Source: Calditrichota bacterium (GTDB taxonomy: Bacteria; Calditrichota; Calditrichia; JAJRVZ01). Taken from it: a DNA stretch of 32,807 bases. Where the stretch lies: positions 1-32,807 of the forward strand of contig JAJRVZ010000064.1 in the NCBI GenBank assembly GCA_024277055.1. Reading direction: 5' to 3'. The translations under genes were made by a program, and so were the position numbers. The number at the start of each line of letters is the position of its first letter. Position 1 is the stretch's first letter. Below the pieces are notes generated by a model. The model ran no database searches. It saw nothing but the letters and a program-made list of their open reading frames with translations, and was not told the DNA's origin. Below, one piece after another: positions 2,298 to 14,503 of this stretch.

Positions 2298-3608
2298 CTA
2301 CCTGGTCCTTGAGTAAGTCTTTTCTTCATTACACGCAGGAAGACACTTCCCCCCGCTTTCTGTCGCTTCATATTTTATCGGCATTTTCCAGCGACCGAAT
2401 CTTGCTTTTTCAGCTATCAGAAAATCCTGATCGGATGCATGTACATTATGACAATTAATACAGCTTCTGGATTTATCCCGCATTACATGCAGATAGTGTA
2501 AATTTAAAAGACCATTTCTGAATTCAGTTTCCGTCGAAGTATTCTTTTTCTCAATTAAATTACTATCATGGCAACCGAAACACAAGGCAAAATTTTCACT
2601 TTTCCCGGTTGTATAATTTCCTTCGGGAAAGGTAAGCGTCAATATCTTGCTGTTTTGTGATCCATGAGGCAAATGACAAGTTGAACATCCCTCTTCCAGG
2701 GGGGCGTGTAAGGTTTTCTTATTAATATCGATTAACTCCGGCCGCTTTCGCGTTGGTGCCAGACTTCTCTTATTCGCGCTTGAATGGCAATTCAAACATA
2801 CTTTTTGCTCTTCGGATTTTAATAAACTGTAGTTTTCACTGATGTGAGGTGAATGACAATTTAAACAGGTGCCTTTTTGACCTAGAGCCGGATGTGGAAC
2901 TTTCGATTGTTCAGCCGTTTGTTGGATTTCGTCATGACATTCGTAACACAAATTTGGTGGATTCATTATCGTTAGCTTAGCCCTTGGTGAATAATGAGGG
3001 ACATGACAATTCAGACAGTCTTCTTCAAATGGTGCGTGAATCGTTTCCGTTGATTCCGTGGCCTGTAAATCATCATGACATTGTAAACATAATTCCGGTG
3101 ATTCGGCTTTTAAAAGAGCACTATTATCGGATTCATGAGGATCATGGCAATTCATGCACTGTTCGTCTTTCACCGGAGCATGGCCAAAACGGCTGTTTTC
3201 TTCAATCAATTCATGGCAGCTGAGACATATAATATGTTTACCTTCCTTTAACAGAAAATACTCCAGATTCGAACCGTGCGGTGAATGGCAGGTTGTGCAA
3301 TCACCCTCTTCAACAGGGGGGTGTATATTTTGTTTTGTACCTTTTTCATCATGGCAATTATAACATAATGTCGGTACTTCGTCACTTATCGTATATTCCT
3401 GGCCCGGATTCTCCGGGTGCTTTGTTTCCTCCGAGTTAAGTTCGTGACAATTGGTGCAGTCCTCCTCAAACGGGGGATGCAGTTCGGAAAGATTAAAAAG
3501 TGATCCATGACATGCCGCCCCCCCACAGCTCTCTTCCTGAGCTATCAACTCCTTCCCTGCAGGAAGCAATACAAGTATACTCGATAAAATCAACAACGGT
3601 ATTTTCAA
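2298..3608 (-). CDS. Multiheme cytochrome with 13 CXXCH, one CX4CH and a degenerate C-terminal heme site
   Basis: This 436-residue secreted cytochrome starts with a signal peptide (residues 1-23) and then carries a chain of paired CXXCH motifs of the doubled-CXXCH type, with CxxCHxPH and H.P...E..C..CH spacing repeated throughout. There are 13 CXXCH sites plus a CGGAACH (CX4CH) at residues 28-34, so up to 14 hemes. Near the C-terminus the sequence CLPACN at 422-427 sits where the 12-heme neighbour has a CX3CH, so that site seems to have lost its histidine. Its start overlaps the stop of the outer-membrane barrel gene by 4 bases, which implies translational coupling. By analogy with porin-cytochrome conduits it could be the cytochrome held in, or just beside, the barrel. 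Whether it is periplasmic or surface-exposed is not visible in the sequence. Confidence 0.9.
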   Translation of the reverse strand: MKIPLLILSSILVLLPAGKELIAQEESCGGAACHGSLFNLSELHPPFEEDCTNCHELNSEETKHPENPGQEYTISDEVPTLCYNCHDEKGTKQNIHPPVEEGDCTTCHSPHGSNLEYFLLKEGKHIICLSCHELIEENSRFGHAPVKDEQCMNCHDPHESDNSALLKAESPELCLQCHDDLQATESTETIHAPFEEDCLNCHVPHYSPRAKLTIMNPPNLCYECHDEIQQTAEQSKVPHPALGQKGTCLNCHSPHISENYSLLKSEEQKVCLNCHSSANKRSLAPTRKRPELIDINKKTLHAPLEEGCSTCHLPHGSQNSKILTLTFPEGNYTTGKSENFALCFGCHDSNLIEKKNTSTETEFRNGLLNLHYLHVMRDKSRSCINCHNVHASDQDFLIAEKARFGRWKMPIKYEATESGGKCLPACNEEKTYSRTR

Positions 3609-5608
3609 AACTTACGCTCCAGTCGTAAATACCCGCTACTGTAATTCAACTGTTCTTCAAAAAAATCTCTTTTGAAAGTCTCAAAGCCTACGGATATTTT
3701 CAATTCCCGGTAAAAGGTGCTGAACTCCCCGCGAAAAGTAAGAAGATCCAGATCGATGGTTCTTCCACTTTGAAACCGGTATGACCCATCAAATTTTACA
3801 TGTGTTCTGTATGCCAGATTATAAATCAACCTGGCGGAAATATCTCTGAAGGTCTGTTCGTCATTATCATCTACCAGAATATACTGACGATAATTTCCGG
3901 TTACAGATGCGAGTAAATCCGTAAGCAGGTTACCGGCAATGGTTACATAGTATTGCTCGGATTTATAAGGAATAATGTTCGAGCGGAAATTGTCGTTTTC
4001 ATATCCGGCCTGAATCAGTTTGTGCCTTACATTCAAACCAAAAACGTTTTGATTGAACTTTTTCAGAATCAGTGCTTCTGAATTCGAAAAATCATCGAAC
4101 GATGATTCGTTATACCGAAAATAGAATTCCAGCAAATTTCTGAATAAACTTAATGAAGCACTGTAGGTATTATTGTTCGATGTGAATTCGTAAGACCCCT
4201 GTTGTACCGCTGTATAATTTACCAGAACGGTGGCACCGGCTGGTATCTGGCCTCCCGGCAGTCGTTGGATTTCAAGGAAATTTCCACGTTCGATGAGCAC
4301 GAAATCTATGTTTTCCTGGTAGATAATCGTTTGTGTTTCATCTGTAACCGTTACGCTTCCCGCAATGACAAAGGGGAATTTCAGCAATTCGGTTCCGCTG
4401 TCTGTTAATACATGCGTTTCATTAACCAGCTGAATTGTATTCTCACCGGCATTTCGCGTTTCTGTTCTTTGACGTGAACTGTATTTTAATCCCAATCGTC
4501 CGAATGGAATTTTCTTTTTATAATCAAAAGAATATCCATAGCCTTTATAATTTTCTTTGTATTCAGTTTGATTAAAATCGTTGTATTCATAATAGATATC
4601 ACTGGACAAACTTTCGAACAACTGATGGCCGAGGTTTGCGATAATACTTTGATTCTTCACATCCAATTTATCTTGTTCAAATTTAGAAAACTGATAATTC
4701 AGACGGCTTTTAAAATTCCAGGGTAACTCGTATGAGACCGATTCATTCGCCTGAATTCTTTTAAATGGTATGGTTCCGTTTTCAATCTTGTAATTGATAA
4801 ATGAAATATAATTTCCCTTTGTTTTGCCGAAGCGTATTGTGTTGCTTAGTTCAATATTCGCAATTTTATTTTCAACTGTTGTGTCAAACAAATAGTCCCT
4901 TGAAAAATCGTCGTACGATACTTCGAGACGATGGGTATCAAATTCGGAAAAGGATTTTTGAAATTCCAGGCCGTAAAAATTGTCCCTGCTTCTGTATTTC
5001 CGCCCTGTCTGTAATTCTTCCTGATCCCATTTTTGATTGTTATACATTAATCGAAACGGAAGAATATCGTTGCGAAATGCAAAATTTACACCAAAACCCG
5101 TCCGGTACATTTCTACATTAGTAGTAAACTCCCGATTGGTAAAACTGTGATTAAAACTTCCGAACAAACTGAAGTTGATCGGCTTACCGGAGAAGAAAGC
5201 CACCCTGCTGTTTATTTTTTCCGCAGTGTTTATCTCGGATCTGTCCGGTATAACCAGATAGCGGTCCCGCTGCGTAGCGGGATTATACTCGCCACCCAAT
5301 TCGATACTCACCAGGTTGGGATGAAACATGTAACTGCGAGTGTTCAATTCAAGTTTTCCCAGGAAGAGCGAGCTTTCCAGTTCATCCTGCAGACCACCTT
5401 TTAATTGGGTATCCTGTTTTCTGTAATTTCCTTCTAATGAAAAACTGCCGTTTATTCTCTGCAATGAAAATAATCTTAAGGGAACATCACGCTGGGCATA
5501 TAACGTTCCGGATAAGATGGAAACAGCCATAATGACCGTCATCATTAATTTAAAAGTATCTGAATTCCTGTATTTACCGTTTAATCGACTTCTTCTCATA
5601 TTCTTCAT
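3605..5608 (-). CDS. Outer-membrane beta-barrel (porin-like) protein of the cytochrome locus
   Basis: The 667-residue product has a long positively charged N-terminus and a signal sequence (hydrophobic residues about 21-36, cleavage near TLYAQ). The rest is rich in alternating hydrophobic and aromatic strands separated by polar turns, and it ends in ERKF, the terminal aromatic residue typical of barrels inserted by the BAM machinery. Around residues 400-460 there is a soluble-looking insertion with a GSVTVTDE...DFVLIE...G.IPAGATVLVNY pattern seen in various surface proteins. There is no CXXCH. It is embedded without gaps between a 5-heme lipoprotein and a 14-site cytochrome, the context expected for the porin of a porin-cytochrome conduit. 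I do not see clear sequence identity to MtrB or OmbB, so the role rests on fold features and context. Confidence 0.8.
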   Translation of the reverse strand: MKNMRRSRLNGKYRNSDTFKLMMTVIMAVSILSGTLYAQRDVPLRLFSLQRINGSFSLEGNYRKQDTQLKGGLQDELESSLFLGKLELNTRSYMFHPNLVSIELGGEYNPATQRDRYLVIPDRSEINTAEKINSRVAFFSGKPINFSLFGSFNHSFTNREFTTNVEMYRTGFGVNFAFRNDILPFRLMYNNQKWDQEELQTGRKYRSRDNFYGLEFQKSFSEFDTHRLEVSYDDFSRDYLFDTTVENKIANIELSNTIRFGKTKGNYISFINYKIENGTIPFKRIQANESVSYELPWNFKSRLNYQFSKFEQDKLDVKNQSIIANLGHQLFESLSSDIYYEYNDFNQTEYKENYKGYGYSFDYKKKIPFGRLGLKYSSRQRTETRNAGENTIQLVNETHVLTDSGTELLKFPFVIAGSVTVTDETQTIIYQENIDFVLIERGNFLEIQRLPGGQIPAGATVLVNYTAVQQGSYEFTSNNNTYSASLSLFRNLLEFYFRYNESSFDDFSNSEALILKKFNQNVFGLNVRHKLIQAGYENDNFRSNIIPYKSEQYYVTIAGNLLTDLLASVTGNYRQYILVDDNDEQTFRDISARLIYNLAYRTHVKFDGSYRFQSGRTIDLDLLTFRGEFSTFYRELKISVGFETFKRDFFEEQLNYSSGYLRLERKF

Positions 5609-6184
5609 TTAAAAGAAAAAATATTGATCATCCCCGCCATGAGGATTATGACATTCTATACATGTAGCATCATCAATTCCTTCATGCGCTTCGTTTTTGA
5701 AAACATCTTTTTGCTCATGACAATACAGGCAAAGATCCTGGCCCGTACGTTCCAGCAATTTTTTTTCACTGGCCATATGTGGATTATGACAACCGGTACA
5801 ATTCCCCGATACTACCGGGCCGTGCAAATAGGTATAGTTTTCGCTGAAGTCGTCATGGCAGTTAAAACAAAGCGCCGGCGGTTGTTCCAGCAATCTGTTG
5901 CCCTCCTCCAGATTATGGCAATCCGTACAGGCTCTCTCCTGGAAGGGCGGGTGAAAAACAAATTCACTTTCCTTCTTTCCCCGCAGCGACCGCAATTCAT
6001 TTTTATTTGATGCCAGTTTAGTGGAATCCTGCTTTACTTCTTTTTTTGCATTCGGGTCCGGTACACCATCAAAAAAGGTACTGAGGATATCATAAGTGGT
6101 CTGCCGGTTACAGCTCACCAGAATTCCCGAAAAAATTATTGTAAATATCAGTGGCCGAATCAAATTTTTGGTTTTCAGTCTCAA
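5609..6184 (-). CDS. Pentaheme cytochrome lipoprotein
   Basis: This 191-residue protein has a lipoprotein signal with lipobox LVSC, lipidated Cys at residue 25, then a low-complexity charged linker and a C-terminal domain with five CXXCH motifs (CTDCH, CFNCH, CTGCH, CLYCH, CIECH). The motifs occur as doubled-CXXCH repeats with the CHNPH and H.P......C..CH spacing, so each heme can find a histidine partner. The stop codon abuts the ATG of the barrel gene with no gap, and the NHL lipoprotein gene lies only 7 bases upstream. A small lipid-anchored cytochrome next to a barrel suggests an electron relay at the periplasmic face of the outer membrane. Which membrane the lipid anchor sits in is not decided by the sequence. 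Confidence 0.88.
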   Translation of the reverse strand: MRLKTKNLIRPLIFTIIFSGILVSCNRQTTYDILSTFFDGVPDPNAKKEVKQDSTKLASNKNELRSLRGKKESEFVFHPPFQERACTDCHNLEEGNRLLEQPPALCFNCHDDFSENYTYLHGPVVSGNCTGCHNPHMASEKKLLERTGQDLCLYCHEQKDVFKNEAHEGIDDATCIECHNPHGGDDQYFFF

Positions 6185-6191
6185 AGTAAAA

Positions 6192-7271
6192 TCACTGTAT
6201 AGTTATTTTTGGTTCAACAAACCCATACACACTTATTTTATCCGGTCCATACTGATTCGTAACAAAAATCAGATACTTTAGATTAAAGCTGCTATGGACA
6301 TATTTTTGAAAATATTTCAGGTTATTGTAATCGACCATCACTTTCGCCGGGAGCCACATGTCTCCCGGTTGACTGTAACTCCCCCCGAAAAACATCATTA
6401 ATTGTCCCTCTGAATTAAACATCTGTACATTCTCAAACCCCGAATCAACTACATAAAGAATATTATTCTTGTCGACGGCAATACCTTTGGGACGAACAAA
6501 TTGTCCCAATCCCCTTCCGAAGCTGCCAATGGATTTAATGTATTCACCTTTTTTGTTAAATACTTTTATTTTGAAAGCTCCGAAATCGCTGACATATATC
6601 CGGTTTGAACTGACGGTTAAATTAATTGGCTGATTTAAAAACTGCGGATCATCCGTTTCGGCATCCGGAAAAGAAAACAAGTGGCGAAAACCGTTTTTTG
6701 TATAGACATGAATTTTATGCTGACGCATATCGCAAAACCAGATCGTATCATTTTTTACAACTACATCCGTCGGTTTGGATTCCATCGCATCTCCGAATGC
6801 GGCAACATATTTCAAGTTCTGATTGAAGACGATTATCTGTTTTCTATTGGCATCTGCCACGTATAACAAACCCTGCTCATCTACGGAACAATTGATGGGT
6901 TTTTTTATCAGTCCGAGTCCGCTCGGTTTAAAATAGTCGAAAGTTTTCTGATTAAGATCCAGAATTTCCAAACCGCCTATTATCGAGTCACATATATAAA
7001 TTCTGCCCTTATAAATCGCAATACCATACGGCTTTACGATGGGATCACCCTGCTTTTCGCCCAATATATATTTCATCAGGCCGGTACGTTGACCGGTTAT
7101 ATCTATACTTGAACTGAAGCTGGTCAGATATTGAATACGGGTAGTATCCGGGGGAGCAGGAAAAATCCTCAATTCGCTTTCACTGATAAGGCGTGTACCA
7201 CTTGTGGAACAGGATATAAAAAAAACAGCGATTAGAAAAACCGCTAGTTTTGTTAAATTCCATTTTTTCAT
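6192..7271 (-). CDS. NHL-repeat six-bladed beta-propeller lipoprotein
   Basis: The 359-residue product begins with a lipoprotein signal (lipobox FISC, Cys 21) and then the PAPPDTTRIQYL segment typical of the N-terminus of NHL lipoproteins that occur next to multiheme cytochrome genes. The body consists of about six NHL blades with recurring patterns such as KPYGIAI...IYICDS, KPINCSVDEQGLLYVAD and RPKGIAVDKNNILYVVDSG. There are no heme motifs or catalytic residues. NHL propellers usually serve as binding platforms, so it may hold or assemble cytochromes at the envelope. It is separated from the upstream tetraheme gene by a hairpin at 7293-7321 and is followed after 7 bases by the 5-heme lipoprotein. 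A second NHL protein without a lipobox is encoded at 13484-14503. Confidence 0.88.
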   Translation of the reverse strand: MKKWNLTKLAVFLIAVFFISCSTSGTRLISESELRIFPAPPDTTRIQYLTSFSSSIDITGQRTGLMKYILGEKQGDPIVKPYGIAIYKGRIYICDSIIGGLEILDLNQKTFDYFKPSGLGLIKKPINCSVDEQGLLYVADANRKQIIVFNQNLKYVAAFGDAMESKPTDVVVKNDTIWFCDMRQHKIHVYTKNGFRHLFSFPDAETDDPQFLNQPINLTVSSNRIYVSDFGAFKIKVFNKKGEYIKSIGSFGRGLGQFVRPKGIAVDKNNILYVVDSGFENVQMFNSEGQLMMFFGGSYSQPGDMWLPAKVMVDYNNLKYFQKYVHSSFNLKYLIFVTNQYGPDKISVYGFVEPKITIQ

Positions 7272-7292
7272 TTTCCATCCTCATCTTTATAA

Positions 7293-7321
7293 TTTAGGGG
7301 TGATAAACAATCACCCCTAAA
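7293..7321 (-). terminator. Hairpin after tetraheme gene (terminator or attenuator)
   Basis: An 11-bp perfect stem (TTTAGGGGTGA / TCACCCCTAAA, loop of 7) lies between the stop at 7358 and the next gene start at 7271. The 3' side on the minus strand is AT-rich but has only a weak U-run, so partial termination or mRNA 3'-end protection is more likely than a full stop. It would lower expression of the NHL, lipoprotein and barrel genes relative to the tetraheme gene. Confidence 0.65.
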
Positions 7322-7357
7322 ATTACATAATTTTCACGGTTACAACAAGATTTCCTC

Positions 7358-8014
7358 TTATTTCAGATGACAGGTTAAACACAAACCGCTGTTCACGTTT
7401 GAGATAAGCAGCAATTTTGTTCCGGGCACGGATTGTGTATTATGTACATCATGGCAGGATGCACATTGAAGTTTCTGTCCGAAAAGTAAATCCGTATCAA
7501 TTGTGTTGCCCAGCCCGCTGTTCGTGGTTGAAGGATCGGCCAATTCACCATCGGAAGTCGCAAGGGCGGAATTATAAGTAATCGATATCGGATGATCGTC
7601 AGTAAGATCCGTTCCCATGACATCCCTGTGTCCTGAAGACCAGAACACGGTTCCGGTCTGTCCTCCCCAGCTGTCCAGTGCCACCGTGCCATCATGACAA
7701 CTCAAACAAAGTTTGGATACACCGTCCGGCTGTCCTGTGGCAGCATCCATGGTTGTGCTGGTATAGGGTGTGAAATTTGCCGTTGTAACCTCATGGTTCC
7801 ACAAAGGGGCATCAACAACACTTGCATCTGCATTGTGCGGTGTATGACATGGAATACAAATCTCATCCGTTCCACCGTGCATGAAGGTCCAGTTCCACCC
7901 GGAGCTGGAAAAATCATGTTGAGAACCTACAATCGTTTGTGCCTGCATTGTTAATGCCGAAGCATAAAAAAGAACCAAAAGCCCCCGCAAAAAGATTCTT
8001 ATTGTTGCTTGCAT
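7358..8014 (-). CDS. Tetraheme c-type cytochrome, candidate extracellular filament subunit
   Basis: This is a 218-residue secreted protein with a signal peptide ending near MQAQ (residues 23-26) and four CXXCH sites at residues 53-57, 103-107, 184-188 and 212-216. Non-heme histidines that recur in the family (QHDF, CHTPH, DDHP, CHDVH) give four candidates for distal ligands, so bis-His coordination of all four hemes is plausible. It is very similar to the product of 8094-8714 directly upstream, including the DAPLWNHEVTT block, which suggests tandem duplication. Small secreted tetraheme cytochromes next to NHL propellers and multiheme partners resemble loci of extracellular cytochrome filaments (OmcE-like and archaeal types); that resemblance is from gene context and motif layout, not from an alignment. 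A hairpin follows the gene. Confidence 0.92.
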   Translation of the reverse strand: MQATIRIFLRGLLVLFYASALTMQAQTIVGSQHDFSSSGWNWTFMHGGTDEICIPCHTPHNADASVVDAPLWNHEVTTANFTPYTSTTMDAATGQPDGVSKLCLSCHDGTVALDSWGGQTGTVFWSSGHRDVMGTDLTDDHPISITYNSALATSDGELADPSTTNSGLGNTIDTDLLFGQKLQCASCHDVHNTQSVPGTKLLLISNVNSGLCLTCHLK

Positions 8015-8051
8015 GATCTATGTTCATTATTTCACTAATCATTTAATTAAA

Positions 8052-8076
8052 AAGGGCGGAAGGCAATTCCGCCCTT
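8052..8076 (-). terminator. Rho-independent terminator after first tetraheme gene
   Basis: A perfect 9-bp GC-rich stem (AAGGGCGGA / TCCGCCCTT, loop of 7) lies 17 bases after the stop of the 8094-8714 gene. On the minus strand it is followed by TTTTTAATT, the layout of an intrinsic terminator. Read-through would feed the next tetraheme gene, so the first cytochrome is likely the most abundant product. Confidence 0.8.
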
Positions 8077-8093
8077 AAGATCTGATTGTTTTT

Positions 8094-8714
8094 TTACTTG
8101 CTGTGGCAGGTCAGGCAGAGTGCGCTGCCGCTATTGTTGATAACCAGCAATTTCGTACCGTTAACCGCCTGGGTGTTATGTACATCGTGGCAGGAAGAAC
8201 ACTGCATTTTACCGCTGATCAGAAGATCCTGATCGATCGTGCCACCAAGGCCACTATTCTGCGTAGTCGGATTATAAATCTCACCGTCTGCGGATGCCAG
8301 TGCAGCATCATAGGTGAAAGATACCGGATGGTCATTGCTCAGATCGGTACCGAGATTTTTGCCACCACCGATAAACTGTGAACCGTTTGTGGTTCCACCG
8401 AAGTTGTCGAGAGCAACCGTACCATCATGGCAGCTCAAACACAATTTGGATGCACCGTCGGGCTGGCCGATCGTGCCGTCAAATGTGCCGGAACTGTAAA
8501 CCGTGAAATTTGTAGTTGTTACTTCATGGTTCCACAGCGGAGCATCCGTTACGGAAGTGTTTGTATTATGCGGTGCATGGCAGACAACACAGATTTCGCC
8601 GGTGTTGTTCCAGTTTTTGTTAGAAAAATCATGAGCCGAACCCACAATCGTCCCTGCAAATGCTGTAGCTGACAAAACAGCCACAACAACCAAAAGACTT
8701 GCTAACTTTTTCAT
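8094..8714 (-). CDS. Tetraheme c-type cytochrome, candidate main filament subunit
   Basis: The 206-residue product has a classic Sec signal (cleavage near residue 20, TAFA-G) and four CXXCH sites at residues 42-46, 92-96, 172-176 and 200-204. Non-heme histidines at 28, 49, 129 and 179 are conserved in the sisters and in the N-terminal part of the 12-heme protein, so they are the best candidates for distal heme ligands; His63 is not shared by the 12-heme protein. A strong ribosome-binding site (GGAGG, 7 bases before the ATG) and a sigma54-like promoter at 8774-8789 precede it, and a strong terminator follows. First position, strong signals and its own terminator suggest a highly made structural cytochrome. 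Polymerisation is inferred from analogy to tetraheme nanowire proteins and cannot be seen directly. Confidence 0.93.
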   Translation of the reverse strand: MKKLASLLVVVAVLSATAFAGTIVGSAHDFSNKNWNNTGEICVVCHAPHNTNTSVTDAPLWNHEVTTTNFTVYSSGTFDGTIGQPDGASKLCLSCHDGTVALDNFGGTTNGSQFIGGGKNLGTDLSNDHPVSFTYDAALASADGEIYNPTTQNSGLGGTIDQDLLISGKMQCSSCHDVHNTQAVNGTKLLVINNSGSALCLTCHSK

Positions 8715-8906: not shown

Positions 8907-8944
8907 GGGGCATTTCACCCAAATTTTTTGGGGCATTTCACCCA
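8907..8944. repeat. Two 15-bp direct repeats, candidate activator-binding site
   Basis: The 15-bp word GGGGCATTTCACCCA occurs exactly at 8907-8921 and 8930-8944, spaced 23 bp start to start (about two helix turns). The second copy overlaps the stop codon of the regulator gene. The pair lies about 145-180 bases upstream of the predicted start of the tetraheme unit, the usual place for a sigma54 enhancer. It is either an upstream activator site or a short duplication. Confidence 0.45.
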
Positions 8945-10326
8945 TCCTGTTGCGAAATCTTGTATTTTTTGATCTTGTAACGCAATGTATCCCGTGTTAC
9001 CCCCATCATTTCCGCCGCTCTCGTTTGGTTATATCCTGATTTTTGAAGAGTCATTTCAATGATCGATTTTTCAATTTCATAAATAGAAAATCCCTCTTCC
9101 GGAATTTCCAGCCATTTTTCCACGTCCGTAATTTTTGTCGGCGGTTTCACACCACTGATTTCAGAAGGCAGATTATCCGTGTCAATCCATTCGTCCGTCT
9201 CAAGTATAATCGCCCTCTCGATCACATTCCTCAGTTCTCTCACGTTTCCCGGCCATGAATAATTCATCAATACCTTTAAAGCATTGTCCGTTACCCCCTT
9301 AATGCTTTTTCTGAACTGCTTGTTAAAGCTTTGAATAAAATATTCTACCAGAAGAGGAATATCTTCCCGCCTTTCACGGATGGGAGGCATGGTTAACTGG
9401 AAAACTTTCAGACGATAATATAGATCATTCCTGAATTTTTTCTGTTCTATTGCAGCATTGAGATCCTGATTGGTTGCTGCAATAATCCTGATATTTACCC
9501 GGATGTCTTCTGTCCCCCCCAACCGACGGAAGACACGGCTTTCAAGAACATTTAAGAGTTTGACCTGCAGAGCTACATTTACTTCACCAATCTCATCCAG
9601 ATACACCGTTCCGCCGTCGGCTACCTCGAACAGACCCTTTTTTTGCGTTTTTGCATCGGTAAATGCACCCCTTTCATGACCGAACAGTTCACTCTCCAAA
9701 AGGGTTTCAGGCAGGGATGCACAATTAATGGTTACAAAGCTTTTATCTTTTCTGTTGCTGTTATTGTGGATTATTCGAGCCAGCAGATCCTTTCCCGTAC
9801 CACTCTCCCCCAGCAATAAAACCGTAGTTGCTTCCGATTGCGAAATCTTTTTTGCCAGATCGATGATTCTATTCATCGATTTTGAAGTTCCAATGATGTG
9901 ATTAAAATTTAGTTTGTCCTGTTGCTCTCGGCGTAATATTTGCAACTCGTTATCGAGATTAATTTTTTTCTCGATGTTCTCAAGAATCAATTCAATTTCA
10001 TCGAAATTAAAGGGTTTGTTTACATATTCGAAGGCACCCATTTTCATGGCCATTACAGCCGTTTCTATCGTACCGTAGGCTGTCATAAAAATTATATAAC
10101 AATCCTCTTTGAGCGCTTTCATTTCCTTTATTAATTCCAGGCCTTGTTTACCAGGTAATTTGTTATCCAGAAAAACCACATCCGGATATTTTTCCTTAAA
10201 GCGCTCCAGTCCCTCTTCTCCGCTTTCGGCCGTTTCGACTGAATAGCCTTCTTTTTTTAATTGCTGTTTGAAAGACCAGCATATCAGTTTTTCGTCATCA
10301 ATAACTAGAATATTCAGGCGAGACAT
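8938..10326 (-). CDS. NtrC-family sigma54-dependent response regulator
   Basis: The 462-residue protein has the full three-domain layout. The receiver domain (1-120) has acidic pair D10/D11, phosphoacceptor D54, T82 and K104. The AAA+ domain (about 142-375) has Walker A GESGTGKD at 173-180, the sigma54-contact loop as GAFTDA at 220-225 instead of the commoner GAFTGA, Walker B GGTVYLDE at 238-245, and the WPGNVREL block. The C-terminal Fis-type helix-turn-helix ends in TRAAEMMGVTRDTLRYKIKKY. It would activate sigma54 RNA polymerase when phosphorylated. Its start lies one base after the end of the open frame of the upstream kinase, so the pair is a two-component system. Likely targets are the promoters at 8774-8789 and 14569-14584, the latter implying autoregulation. 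Confidence 0.95.
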   Translation of the reverse strand: MSRLNILVIDDEKLICWSFKQQLKKEGYSVETAESGEEGLERFKEKYPDVVFLDNKLPGKQGLELIKEMKALKEDCYIIFMTAYGTIETAVMAMKMGAFEYVNKPFNFDEIELILENIEKKINLDNELQILRREQQDKLNFNHIIGTSKSMNRIIDLAKKISQSEATTVLLLGESGTGKDLLARIIHNNSNRKDKSFVTINCASLPETLLESELFGHERGAFTDAKTQKKGLFEVADGGTVYLDEIGEVNVALQVKLLNVLESRVFRRLGGTEDIRVNIRIIAATNQDLNAAIEQKKFRNDLYYRLKVFQLTMPPIRERREDIPLLVEYFIQSFNKQFRKSIKGVTDNALKVLMNYSWPGNVRELRNVIERAIILETDEWIDTDNLPSEISGVKPPTKITDVEKWLEIPEEGFSIYEIEKSIIEMTLQKSGYNQTRAAEMMGVTRDTLRYKIKKYKISQQDG

Positions 10327-10327
10327 A

Positions 10328-10579
10328 TTAAACGATTTCTTCTATTAAAGTCATATCTTTTTTACTGGTCTGATGTACCGGCAAACTTATTATAATAGTC
10401 GTTCCGATATTTTGCTTGCTTTCTATTTTTATTCCGCCTCCATGGCGCTCGATAATGTCTTTTGAAATTGAGAGCCCCAGCCCGGTTCCTTTGTTGCGGG
10501 TGGTAAAAAACGGTTTAAATACCCGTGACCGGTCTTCTTCCGGAATACCCTTGCCATCATCTTCTATCCTGATCAGGAT
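10328..10579 (-). pseudogene. C-terminal ATP-binding remnant of the histidine kinase, beyond an in-frame stop
   Basis: The kinase frame continues past the TAA at 10580-10582 for 83 more codons with no shift and ends in TAA at 10328-10330, one base before the regulator ATG. These codons encode the missing half of the HATPase domain: G1 box IEDDGKGIP, F box VFKPFFTTR and G2 box KGTGLGLSISK, then a typical C-terminus. No ATG with a ribosome-binding site precedes it in frame, so it is unlikely to be made separately. Either one substitution (for example AAA, GAA or CAA to TAA) has split a 496-residue kinase, or the base is a sequence error. Confidence 0.8.
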
Positions 10580-11818
10580 TTATTCCCGCTGACTATTAAA
10601 TTCCGTTGTAAAAGTTACAACACCATGATCAACAATAGACTGGATTGCATTTTGCCCGAGATTAATGATTACATCCTCAATTTGCTTGTGATCGAACTCA
10701 AAAACAGGAATACCGCTGGCTAGTTTCAGATGGAATGCTATCTTTTTTTCAGTAACCTGATTTTCAAGAAAAAAAACGGCTGACCGGATCAGCTGGTTAA
10801 TATTACCCGGCTCACTTTGCAGATCAATCGGCTTTGAAAACTGCAATAGATCATTTATCGTTTTATTTACCCGGTGTACCTGGCGATTAATTTCTTCCAA
10901 AACGGGCTTTTTGTCTTCATCATAGGCATCGCTGACAATTATTTCAATAGCATTTGCGATTCCGGTAAGCGGATTTTTTATCTCATGAGCCAGGCCGGCA
11001 GCCATTTCACCGACGGTCGCCAGCTTCTGAGCATTCAGCAATTCTTTCTGGTGATATTCTGCAAGTTTGTTCTGCATGAGCTGCAATTGATCCAGCATAC
11101 GGTTAAAACTTTCCCCCAGACTGCCCAATTCCTTATAATCGGCAATACTTACTCTGGCGCTTAATTCTCCCTCTTCAACTTTTTGAATCGTTTTTATAAA
11201 GTTTTGCAATGAGCGACGCACTGATTTGTAGTGCATGAAAATAGCGCCAACGATTATTATCAGTAACATTAAAACTGTAAAAACAATTCCAAACTGTCTG
11301 ATTAAAGCTATATTTTCTTTCAGGTTGCGCATGGAATAATCAAGCACGACATAGCCGAGATTTACGGAACCATCGCCATGACAGGAAAAACATTTTCCGC
11401 TGTTTTGGATCTGCATAATAGCTCTCAGGTATCCGTCATCCGCCCGGTCGGATCTATAGTTTACAGTTATATCTTCAGAAACCGCAGAAACGTCAATAAA
11501 ACCCGTCTGACCGGATAGTGTCGTATCCGAAGTTGTGGACATCACGATTTTTCCGGATGCATCCAGTATATAGGTTGCATTGATATTCTCATCTTTCTGT
11601 AATCTGTTCAAAATTGGATACAGTATCTTTCCGCCGTTGTCGGACAAAAAGAAGAGCATATCATTTCGCAGAATGCCAAGTAATCGCCGGACACTTTCTT
11701 CAGAATTCCGTTGAACTCTTTCCGCCACGGAATTCTGATAAAAATTAAAGGCCACATAGCTGGCAATTATTATCATCAGCGAAAGCGATGTCAGTATTTT
11801 AAATCTGAATGTAAACAT
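10580..11818 (-). CDS. Membrane histidine kinase with a c-type heme site in its sensor domain (truncated)
   Basis: The 412 residues read: transmembrane helix 8-27, an extracytoplasmic sensor region (about 28-172) with a CFSCH motif at 143-147 followed by GYVVLDYS, a second transmembrane helix about 176-196, a HAMP domain (about 197-250), a HisKA domain with phosphoacceptor His278 in AGLAHEIKNPL, and the N box of the ATPase domain (IEDVIINLGQNAIQSI). A TAA at 10580-10582 then ends translation before the G1 and G2 boxes. A covalently bound heme in the periplasmic part suggests redox or ligand sensing. It starts 8 bases after the 12-heme cytochrome gene and precedes its regulator. As read it cannot bind ATP properly; the in-frame continuation at 10328-10579 would complete it. 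Confidence 0.9.
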   Translation of the reverse strand: MFTFRFKILTSLSLMIIIASYVAFNFYQNSVAERVQRNSEESVRRLLGILRNDMLFFLSDNGGKILYPILNRLQKDENINATYILDASGKIVMSTTSDTTLSGQTGFIDVSAVSEDITVNYRSDRADDGYLRAIMQIQNSGKCFSCHGDGSVNLGYVVLDYSMRNLKENIALIRQFGIVFTVLMLLIIIVGAIFMHYKSVRRSLQNFIKTIQKVEEGELSARVSIADYKELGSLGESFNRMLDQLQLMQNKLAEYHQKELLNAQKLATVGEMAAGLAHEIKNPLTGIANAIEIIVSDAYDEDKKPVLEEINRQVHRVNKTINDLLQFSKPIDLQSEPGNINQLIRSAVFFLENQVTEKKIAFHLKLASGIPVFEFDHKQIEDVIINLGQNAIQSIVDHGVVTFTTEFNSQRE

Positions 11819-11826
11819 TTTCAGGT

Positions 11827-13494
11827 TTAATACGTCTTCGGACCATGTCTTTTACCATGACATTCCAGATAACATTCACCCTTATAATTACCGGTATCGC
11901 GAAATTCAAGCCGGCCCGAATTCGGGTCTGGATTAACAACGGCCGTATTAAAATTGATAAGAGCCGTATGGCTGCCCTGATCGGAACTGATACCGTGTGG
12001 ATCATGACAATGGTTGCAGGGAAACTTCTCCTTAACAATGTGTTTTTTATGAACATCTTTACCAAACTTGTCGGTAGAATTAATGATCGAGTTCCGGTCG
12101 TGGCACTGATAACATAGCTCATAAGCAAAATAGGATTCGCTCGTATTCTCCTGTGTATTGTAATTAAATTTTAGAATTCGCGGATATATTGAGCCGTGGG
12201 GACCCTTAGGGGAGCCGGGACCGTCACTGGCATGGCAATCCGAACAGTAGATTGTGCTCGATTCCGTCAGGGGTGAAATCAGACTGCGAACATTCGTGTT
12301 CTTTCCAGGACCTTCAACCGGATGATAGGAAGTGTTCCCCAGATCAAACTCCAGACGTACATTGTTTTGCTCCCATTGCCTTGGTGTCGGGCTGGAGGGT
12401 TTATTGGGACTATCCGCATGACACCGGTAGCATATTTCATATTCATATTGGGCATTATTGGTTGGATTGCCGTTAGTGTCTATACCGGGAGCTCCCTGTA
12501 ATGCACCGCTGACATTGGGTGACTGGCTGCTTCCTCCGTTTGCTGCATGAGGATTATGGCAATCGACGCACTCAACGTGCAGCGCCTGTACCGGATCCTG
12601 CTCTTTGTTATCATGTATTTGCTGATAATTATACACGTTATGGGTATAGGTTTTTGACAGCATGGCTTCAATATTTTTACTTGCCACACTTCCGTTGTGA
12701 CAATGCAGACAGTTGTTTTCTTCATTCAGCCAATTCAACAACCGTTCTTTTCCCTGGGCATTGTGCGGATCATGACAGTTCTCACAGGCATTTTGCGAAA
12801 CCGTTGTGTAATCGGTATGAAACCAGGGATCCGTTCCGTTTCCGTTCCAGGTTTTATTCGAGGTCTGATGTGAAGCGGTAGACCAGAAATTTTTGTCGTG
12901 ACAATAAAGACACAAAGCGGAGTTTTCATTTGTTGCCAGCAGGAAATTGCCATACACATTGCTGTGCGGATCATGGCACGATGTACATTCCATTTTATCG
13001 CCTTGTAAATGTACCGGTCCGCTTAAAAGAGAAGGATCGACAAGTTCACCGTCACTGGCTGCCAATGAAGAATTGTAGGTAAAAGAAATCGGGTGATCGT
13101 CATCCAGGTTCGTTGTCAAATCACTCCCGCGTCCGGCAAGAGTTCCCGAACCGGAAAAACTGATTGGAACCGGTCTGCTCAAAACATTTCCCAGTGCAAT
13201 GGTACCATCATGACAGGAAAGACACAAAAGTGATGAACCCGAAGGTTGACCGGGTGCCGCTTCTGTGGAAGAACTGTTATACAACGTATAGTTTGAAACC
13301 GGATCCGTACGGTTCCACAATGCCCCCCTCGCGCTGGCGGCATGCGGCGTATGGCAAAATATACAGATTTCCGTTTCGCTCAGGGCCTTTACAGAACCCG
13401 GCCCGGAAACAGACAAATTATGAACGGTTCCAACAATTGACTGACTGAAACACAGTCCAGGCAAAACAATGAACAAAATCCATTTAATTTTCAT
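11827..13494 (-). CDS. 12-heme cytochrome with N-terminal tetraheme module
   Basis: The 555-residue secreted protein (signal peptide residues 1-18) has 11 CXXCH motifs plus a C-terminal CYLECH (CX3CH) in the context GECYLECHGKRHGPKTY. Residues about 19-205 repeat the layout of the small tetraheme cytochromes, with the CHTPH, LWN, CLSCHDGT, DDHPISFTY and CHDPH blocks in the same order. The remaining 350 residues hold eight further heme sites. This makes it a natural adapter: a filament-subunit-like domain fused to a longer heme chain. It overlaps the upstream NHL gene by 11 bases and is followed 8 bases later by the heme-sensor kinase. Electron transfer outside the inner membrane is near certain; the adapter or cap role is an inference. 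Confidence 0.92.
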   Translation of the reverse strand: MKIKWILFIVLPGLCFSQSIVGTVHNLSVSGPGSVKALSETEICIFCHTPHAASARGALWNRTDPVSNYTLYNSSSTEAAPGQPSGSSLLCLSCHDGTIALGNVLSRPVPISFSGSGTLAGRGSDLTTNLDDDHPISFTYNSSLAASDGELVDPSLLSGPVHLQGDKMECTSCHDPHSNVYGNFLLATNENSALCLYCHDKNFWSTASHQTSNKTWNGNGTDPWFHTDYTTVSQNACENCHDPHNAQGKERLLNWLNEENNCLHCHNGSVASKNIEAMLSKTYTHNVYNYQQIHDNKEQDPVQALHVECVDCHNPHAANGGSSQSPNVSGALQGAPGIDTNGNPTNNAQYEYEICYRCHADSPNKPSSPTPRQWEQNNVRLEFDLGNTSYHPVEGPGKNTNVRSLISPLTESSTIYCSDCHASDGPGSPKGPHGSIYPRILKFNYNTQENTSESYFAYELCYQCHDRNSIINSTDKFGKDVHKKHIVKEKFPCNHCHDPHGISSDQGSHTALINFNTAVVNPDPNSGRLEFRDTGNYKGECYLECHGKRHGPKTY

Positions 13495-14503
13495 CGCTAA
13501 ATCCCTTTACAAATTTAAATTCCTGGATACGTGAGTTATATAAATCCGCTATGAAAATATGATCATTATCATCAATATAGATTCCTGCCGGGAGCCAAAA
13601 CTCCCCCATTTTTCTTCCCTGGCGTCCGATATGCATGAGTAACTGCCCCCTTCTGTCAAACACCTGTACCGTATTGAATATGGCATCCACGATATAGATT
13701 CGTCCCCTCGAGTCGGTTGCCACGCCCCGCGGGCGGGCAAAGTACCCGGCTGAGTCCCCGGCATCACCAAACTCCATCACGAAGTTTCCTTCAATGTCAA
13801 AGACCTGAATTCTAAAATTCATGGAATCTATTACATAAATCATGCCAGTTTTATCTACCCAGACAAACGTCGGATAATTAAACTGACCCGGCCCCGTTCC
13901 ACGTTGCCCCAGTGAGCGTAGCAGATTACCCTGCAGATCAAATTGTGACAACTGATGTTTTTTTGTTTCAACGACCCACAAGGTTTTGTTTTTATTGCAA
14001 AAAGCCAGGCCTGTGGGGCGGTTGAAATTGTGAGAAGCGGCAAATTCCTCAAATTGTTTATCTTCAGAATTGAACCGGTAGACCCGGTTGAGTTCTGAAT
14101 CCGAAATAAACATATTTTTATTATCCCCCAGACAAATCCCCACCGGCGCCTTCAAACGCATATCATTTTCCGGGTAATATTGGGTGATTTCACCCTCTTC
14201 AAAATCCAGACAGAACAAAGAGTGTCGCGCCTGATCCAAAACCCACTGGCGTCTTTCAGCGTCCACAACAAGGTTGAACGGATTCATTAAATTGATCTGT
14301 TTTTTGCCAAAAAGCAGGTCGGCAATCCGGTCTCCAAGACCCGGCTCAAATCCCGTATCAACCCTGTTATTATAAGCCCCGACCCATTCGATTATCCGGT
14401 TTTCTTTATCCGGCCAGTAAACCGAACTGGAATCATCCTGTGCATCGGCCTTTAACGAAAAAATAAAAATTACACCCAGAATCTGCAGATAAGTTTTTAA
14501 CAT
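13484..14503 (-). CDS. NHL-repeat six-bladed beta-propeller protein, exported
   Basis: This 339-residue protein has a Sec signal peptide (residues 1-21, cleavage near ADAQ) and no lipobox, so it should be soluble in the periplasm or outside. Six NHL blades can be traced by repeats such as APVGICLGDNKNMFISDS, RPTGLAFCNKNKTLWVVET, YPTFVWVDKTGMIYVIDS and RPRGVATDSRGRIYIVDA. It is the first gene of the regulatory cytochrome unit, with a sigma54-like promoter 65-80 bases upstream, and it overlaps the 12-heme cytochrome gene by 11 bases. It is the non-lipidated counterpart of the NHL lipoprotein at 6192-7271. A scaffold or chaperone function for cytochrome assembly is suggested by the repeated pairing but not proven by sequence. 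Confidence 0.88.
   Translation of the reverse strand: MLKTYLQILGVIFIFSLKADAQDDSSSVYWPDKENRIIEWVGAYNNRVDTGFEPGLGDRIADLLFGKKQINLMNPFNLVVDAERRQWVLDQARHSLFCLDFEEGEITQYYPENDMRLKAPVGICLGDNKNMFISDSELNRVYRFNSEDKQFEEFAASHNFNRPTGLAFCNKNKTLWVVETKKHQLSQFDLQGNLLRSLGQRGTGPGQFNYPTFVWVDKTGMIYVIDSMNFRIQVFDIEGNFVMEFGDAGDSAGYFARPRGVATDSRGRIYIVDAIFNTVQVFDRRGQLLMHIGRQGRKMGEFWLPAGIYIDDNDHIFIADLYNSRIQEFKFVKGFSDEN

Follow-up and report, generated by a model that had tools for sequence, protein, structure and literature searches.

Related electron-transfer systems

OmcE from Geobacter sulfurreducens, known as a nanowire subunit from cryo-EM (PDB code 7TFS), is a free four-heme protein that homopolymerises. Within the filament, heme 2 of OmcE takes a ligand from the adjacent subunit (review, PMC12203936). 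The attachment of cytochrome nanowires to the cell and their secretion are described as speculative (recent review, PMC12307469).

The undecaheme electron transfer (Uet) pathway of Tenderiales and Gallionella includes, in the passages of PMC10734462 that deal with it, the tetraheme UetA, the barrel UetC and the NHL proteins UetHI. The same passages place UetJ and an “extracellular tetraheme” among the members of a porin-multiheme complex and mention no filament. In Desulfovibrio ferrophilus, the loci DFE_0448-0451 and DFE_0461-0465 hold multiheme cytochromes amid 6-bladed propellers and a pentaheme lipoprotein, a setting which by its description is like the one presented here, and the relevant passages of PMC8322314 report no filament-subunit domain for them.

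The window, a stretch of 32,807 nucleotides from a fragmented MAG of a Calditrichota bacterium, carries at 11827–13494 the gene of a UetJ-like protein, here named D12h, on the reverse strand, as are all other features of the window given below. Sequence, fold and homologues define D12h as a secreted 12-heme cytochrome of 555 amino acids made of an OmcE-type head and an octaheme tail. According to the passages cited, UetJ has 11–12 hemes and lies beside a tetraheme, a barrel and two NHL proteins; D12h matches this description and, by heme count and neighbours, appears to belong to the UetJ family. UetJ is called an undecaheme protein in those passages, whereas the conserved CX3CH site brings the count to 12. 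The triheme UetDEG have no counterpart in the window, which contains no 3-heme ORF, and a Pfam scan of neighbouring genes revealed no PPIase of the UetB type. Unlike the Uet cluster as described there, the one in the window has a 5-heme lipoprotein (L5) and a 13-heme MtrA-like protein (M13h). The literature searched, which did not include Eddie et al. 2022, yielded no link between undecaheme proteins or UetJ and OmcE filaments; the OmcE identity of the UetJ-like head, the two-gene version and the signs of a second OmcE unit may thus be new, although priority is uncertain.

The OmcE-type head of D12h

D12h begins with a Sec-type signal peptide (residues 1–18, 13441–13494) in which no lipobox is seen. 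The 12 heme sites originally predicted for the ORF are present as 11 CXXCH motifs and one terminal CX3CH. The head comprises residues 19–205 (12880–13440) with hemes 1–4, and the expectation that this segment repeats the layout of the small tetraheme cytochromes, including all four distal histidines (H25, H51, H134 and H177), was borne out.

In a phmmer search of 177,635 distinct PDB sequences, residues 15–201 match OmcE with E=1e-25, and the second and last match of D12h is 9yuq, an OmcE-family tetraheme, with E=1e-24. A profile built from 13 D12h sequences finds OmcE at E=2.5e-40, with profile positions 7–206 aligned to OmcE 9–232. Two tetrahemes encoded in the window are also similar, T7361 sharing 50% identity with D12h residues 13–201 (E=8e-40) and T8097 45% identity with residues 6–202. 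The structure was modelled by AlphaFold from 89 sequences without templates (mean pLDDT 88.6, pTM 0.86), an earlier run on 13 sequences having been discarded at pLDDT 31. A Foldseek comparison of the model with the PDB retrieves 7tfs over 201 columns (E=3.1e-9, TM 0.72 on the OmcE side), and OmcE is the sole fold match below E=0.001.

The head thus has the same fold, the four CXXCH motifs and the four distal His of OmcE, and these distal His are all present in 9yuq as well. Their conservation is 0.99–1.00 in fused heads and 0.94–1.00 in tetrahemes, and the four distal and four proximal His are kept in 86 fused heads, in the module tetrahemes and in OmcE. Sequence and fold together confirm that the head is an OmcE-type subunit. 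D12h as a whole is more than an OmcE, which is a free protein ending at heme 4, since a tail of 350 residues and eight hemes follows.

Paired CXXCH motifs are common to multiheme cytochromes (PF09699), and the likeness could in principle reflect generic repetition with no kinship to OmcE. This explanation has a negligible probability, because among all PDB chains the sequence matches are OmcE and 9yuq only and the fold match is OmcE only, so that the likeness of the head exceeds generic CXXCH spacing, the outcome on which the original prediction had been made to depend. Generic repetition is therefore rejected for the head; hemes 5–8 of the tail are in part open to it.

The donor His of OmcS follows the first CXXCH. 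H51 of D12h (CHTPH, 13342–13344) also follows the first CXXCH and, by analogy with OmcS, is taken here to be a candidate inter-subunit donor. The loop bearing it, residues 49–58, is the sole stretch of the model with pLDDT below 50, which might weakly suggest that H51 needs a partner.

The octaheme tail

The remainder of D12h had been described as eight other heme sites. The eight sites exist, but the first four are less foreign to the head than this wording implies, as they repeat the OmcE ligand order. The segment of hemes 5–8 (residues 206–365, 12400–12879) contains in succession H209, CxxCHxPH, CLxCHNGxVA, a His, CxDCHNPH and CxxCH (CYRCH in D12h), and the His that separates CLxCHNGxVA from CxDCHNPH occurs as HPV in most of the split octahemes described below. 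H209 (12868–12870) stands at the start of the tail, 10 residues past His199 of heme 4, where a following OmcE unit would have its N-terminus, and is invariant in 81/81 sequences.

Of the 89 heads, 87 carry the signature CxxCH[DN]Gx[VIA][AG], 85 of them at heme 2, and it recurs in 64 of 89 tails at heme 6, the second heme of the tail, with one extra site at tail heme 3. The other multihemes of the same loci have it in one of 175 proteins (1 of 1599 sites), with a Fisher p=3e-39, a value uncorrected for the relatedness of the sequences. With the OmcE ligand order and the heme-2 signature of the heads both recurring in the tail, hemes 5–8 are read, with moderate confidence, as a degenerate second OmcE unit. 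The motif count with its control set replaced hhalign as support for this assignment: the tail aligns with the tetraheme at E=3e-14, but the MtrA-like control does better at E=4e-25, and hhalign was dropped as proof.

Other searches give the tail no convincing PDB relative. The tetraheme HMM does not span it, the tail alone has no match in the PDB sequence search, and in the PDB fold search the model shows no fold match of the tail's own. The tail profile gives only weak PDB matches, to MtrF (E=0.22) and OmcE (E=1.3, tail 24–47), and the MtrC/MtrF domain II/IV model scores over part of it. The C-terminal part with hemes 9–12 (residues 366–555, 11830–12399) has no PDB relative by sequence or fold; it ends in the CX3CH site (CYLECH, residues 541–546, 11857–11874), which is kept in 81/81 sequences.

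With 12 conserved non-proximal His in the 81 aligned sequences to serve the eight tail hemes, neither H209 nor H244 need be the only spare ligand, and H209 was rejected as the sole spare distal one. The upstream His of the split octahemes could align with either H209 or H226.

Distribution and the two-gene version

D12h or a fragment of it is present in 13 of 40 genomes of the class, the window's own included, and the others show 55–65% identity. A single-sequence query of genomes found nothing, while an alignment query run against GTDB genomes brought up 80 loci in about 16 named lineages. By their record labels these are Calditrichota, Bacteroidota/Ignavibacteria, KSB1, Nitrospirota, Nitrospinota, Planctomycetota, Verrucomicrobiota, Kiritimatiellota, Myxococcota, Gemmatimonadota, Zixibacteria, Hydrogenedentes, BRC1, Neomarinimicrobiota, Desulfobacterota and Proteobacteria. 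Two strain-named records, Aestuariivivens sediminis and Desulforhopalus sp. IMCC35007, have a homologue. Among the 81 aligned D12h sequences, 77 have 11 CXXCH motifs and all end in CX3CH. The fusion of a subunit-like domain with a longer heme wire, as originally proposed, is thus real, OmcE-like and widely conserved; the proposed role in seating or capping a filament fits these data and is argued below by inference.

In Desulfobacterota, the phylum of Desulforhopalus, a tail profile detects either D12h or a protein consisting of the tail only in 42 of 395 genomes. At 12 loci, 11 of them from Desulfobacterota and one (L034) from another phylum, head and tail are encoded by separate genes in the order NHL1-tetraheme-octaheme. 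The split octaheme has seven CXXCH and a CX3CH, its own leader and at least one His before the first heme. In L034 the split pair takes the position that D12h normally has within the module, and the tetraheme of this pair groups with the fused heads. Head and tail thus act as partners whether fused or separate. A headless protein at L190 with nine CXXCH has a different layout and was not counted as a split form.

In a tree of the tetraheme domains, 74 rows of module tetrahemes cluster separately from the heads (SH-aLRT 99), as expected if the head is a specialised subunit; phylogeny of this domain had been proposed as a check. OmcE and 9yuq are placed with the heads, but their branches are long and the surrounding support is weak, and OmcE-orthologue profile scores favour the tetraheme side, so that neither is assigned to one side here.

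The split octahemes, as separate secreted proteins, are also what would be expected if D12h were a stand-alone extracellular terminal cytochrome, analogous to MtrC/OmcB and acting in the UetJ role, with the head an inherited scaffold and the tetrahemes soluble extracellular shuttles. The score of the tail with the MtrC/MtrF domain II/IV model and the placement of UetJ and an extracellular tetraheme in a porin-multiheme complex, with no filament named in those passages (PMC10734462), point the same way. A mere scaffold would be expected to have lost the inter-subunit ligand somewhere in more than 80 homologues, yet all OmcE ligands are kept, including whichever goes to the neighbouring subunit. 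The stand-alone cytochrome is on this evidence unlikely, though it deserves serious attention.

The conserved module

D12h stands in a conserved module together with an OmcE-like tetraheme, NHL2, a 5-heme lipoprotein, a predicted barrel and NHL1, often joined by an MtrA-like 13-heme protein. Among the 39 loci whose flanks extend 7.5 kb or more to each side of D12h, the tetraheme is found in 36, NHL1 and NHL2 in 37 each, the barrel in 38, the 5-heme lipoprotein in 29 and the MtrA-like protein in 18.

In the window, the module-conserved tetraheme and candidate filament subunit is T8097 (8094–8714), next to a second OmcE-like tetraheme, T7361 (7358–8014). The NHL1 beta-propeller (13484–14503) lies directly upstream of D12h, as in 67 of 76 loci, and the NHL2 beta-propeller (6192–7271) has a lipoprotein-like leader. 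L5 (5609–6184) is a 5-heme lipoprotein with an invariant Cys25. BAR (3605–5608), of 667 amino acids, is a predicted outer-membrane beta-barrel by its sequence character and position, and M13h (2298–3608) is a 13-heme MtrA-like conduit cytochrome that matches MtrA (6r2q_A) at E=3e-16.

The MtrA-like protein, the lipoprotein cytochrome and the large predicted barrel resemble the MtrCAB and related porin-cytochrome conduits, as does the score of the D12h tail with MtrC/MtrF domain II/IV. Unlike MtrCAB, the module has a barrel with no match to MtrB, no decaheme MtrC, and NHL propellers in addition. The BAR family contains no recurring Pfam family, and its 23-sequence profile has no PDB match at E<=1, MtrB included, so that assignment of BAR to the MtrB-family barrels is unsupported.

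OmcE orthologues (61% identity) have a different neighbourhood, with NHL, 8-heme and 10-heme genes and no D12h. It follows that OmcE filaments need no adjacent D12h, and that NHL propellers recur beside OmcE-type genes in both settings.

The window has a single D12h gene and four tetraheme-type genes. This ratio bears on the idea that D12h, alone or mixed with tetrahemes, is itself a repeating 12-heme filament subunit, for which the intact head ligands and the repeated OmcE-like quartet in the tail could be cited. A single copy beside several tetrahemes, together with the lack of an OmcE layout in hemes 9–12, makes such a filament quite improbable.

A possible end-piece of OmcE-type filaments

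The features described above can be combined in a tentative model, to which slightly less than an even chance is given, where D12h is the terminal adaptor of an OmcE-type filament, probably seated on an outer-membrane conduit. The head would be a filament subunit with every ligand intact. One of its faces would join the polymer that the tetrahemes are presumed to form, through an OmcE-like exchange of His to heme, while the other face would be sealed permanently by the protein's own tail, in which the degenerate quartet of hemes 5–8 would take the place, in cis, of a following filament subunit. Hemes 9–12 would then be a tetraheme end part which is no filament subunit. With one head face sealed by the tail, the filament could not grow past D12h. 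The single D12h gene against four tetraheme genes and the separate grouping of the heads fit a minor, terminal part.

The filament would be seated most likely on the barrel, the 5-heme lipoprotein and the MtrA-like conduit, so as to provide one continuous heme path. A tail that matches the MtrC/MtrF domain II/IV model would be suited to dock on the outer side, and given the linkage of D12h to the barrel and the MtrA-like gene, the cell-side end is likelier than the tip. MtrC is a terminal reductase, and an MtrC-like tail could equally cap the distal tip of the filament and expose its hemes to minerals, electrodes or partner cells, with the same anatomy as in the adaptor model. Nothing in the gene linkage favours the tip, and the presence of the barrel in 38 of 39 loci slightly favours the cell end; the tip position is accordingly considered improbable.

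The adaptor model leads to a broader and more doubtful proposal, somewhat less probable than the adaptor role itself, in which D12h represents a segment of OmcE-type nanowire locked into a single polypeptide, consisting of unit 1, a degenerate unit 2 and a cap. It would be an encoded terminator or anchor that sets nanowire polarity and links the wires to the outer-membrane conduit across many phyla, with a two-gene version in Desulfobacterota. A protein with a subunit at one end, a non-filament heme chain at the other and conduit genes alongside makes the question of attachment directly testable. D12h could also serve as a genomic marker predicting OmcE-type filaments in phyla where they have perhaps not been looked for.

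Other features of the locus and its relatives

The window encodes two further OmcE-like proteins. T1538 (1535–2197) has a fifth CXXCH near its C-terminus, the inserted motif being CLGCH, and five-motif homologues are found in L035 and L030. T715 (712–1305) is a tetraheme without the His after the first CXXCH, having CHFKSG in place of CHTPH. Lacking this His, T715 may not function like the others at one of its interfaces and is possibly an opposite-end or chain-stopping subunit.

Between D12h and T8097 lie genes for a sigma-54 activator response regulator and a histidine kinase with a c-heme motif (8938–11818). Kinase and regulator often occur between D12h and the tetraheme in Calditrichota and are absent from some modules. 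The predicted periplasmic sensor region of the kinase (10580–11818) contains a single CXXCH (CFSCH), which is kept in relatives such as L021, L028 and L030, and the kinase is a candidate c-heme redox sensor that would control the module with the sigma-54 activator.

The BAR family has a well-conserved internal stretch, VTDxxGTxxY...PGGxIxxGxTVLVDY, which looks like an inserted domain. M13h ends in CLPACNEEKTYSR, and its 9- to 23-heme relatives near OmcE orthologues end in GGTCVVGCHKPKSYDR with CX3CH; the terminal heme site of M13h has apparently been lost. Several of the OmcE-orthologue loci (L208-L214) share an NHL propeller, an 8-heme cytochrome whose N-terminal stretch is without heme, and a 9- to 10-heme MtrA-like cytochrome (23-heme in L214).

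In the Gammaproteobacteria (L083, L078, L088, L115), cytochromes with 18 to 24 hemes and a further NHL gene occur close to the module, mostly downstream of further 7- and 8-heme genes. The genome of L039 (G000) has on contig C25, at 3372–8125 on the reverse strand, a separate pair of 19-heme and 11-heme cytochromes, and a gene similar to its 19-heme one adjoins the module in L030.
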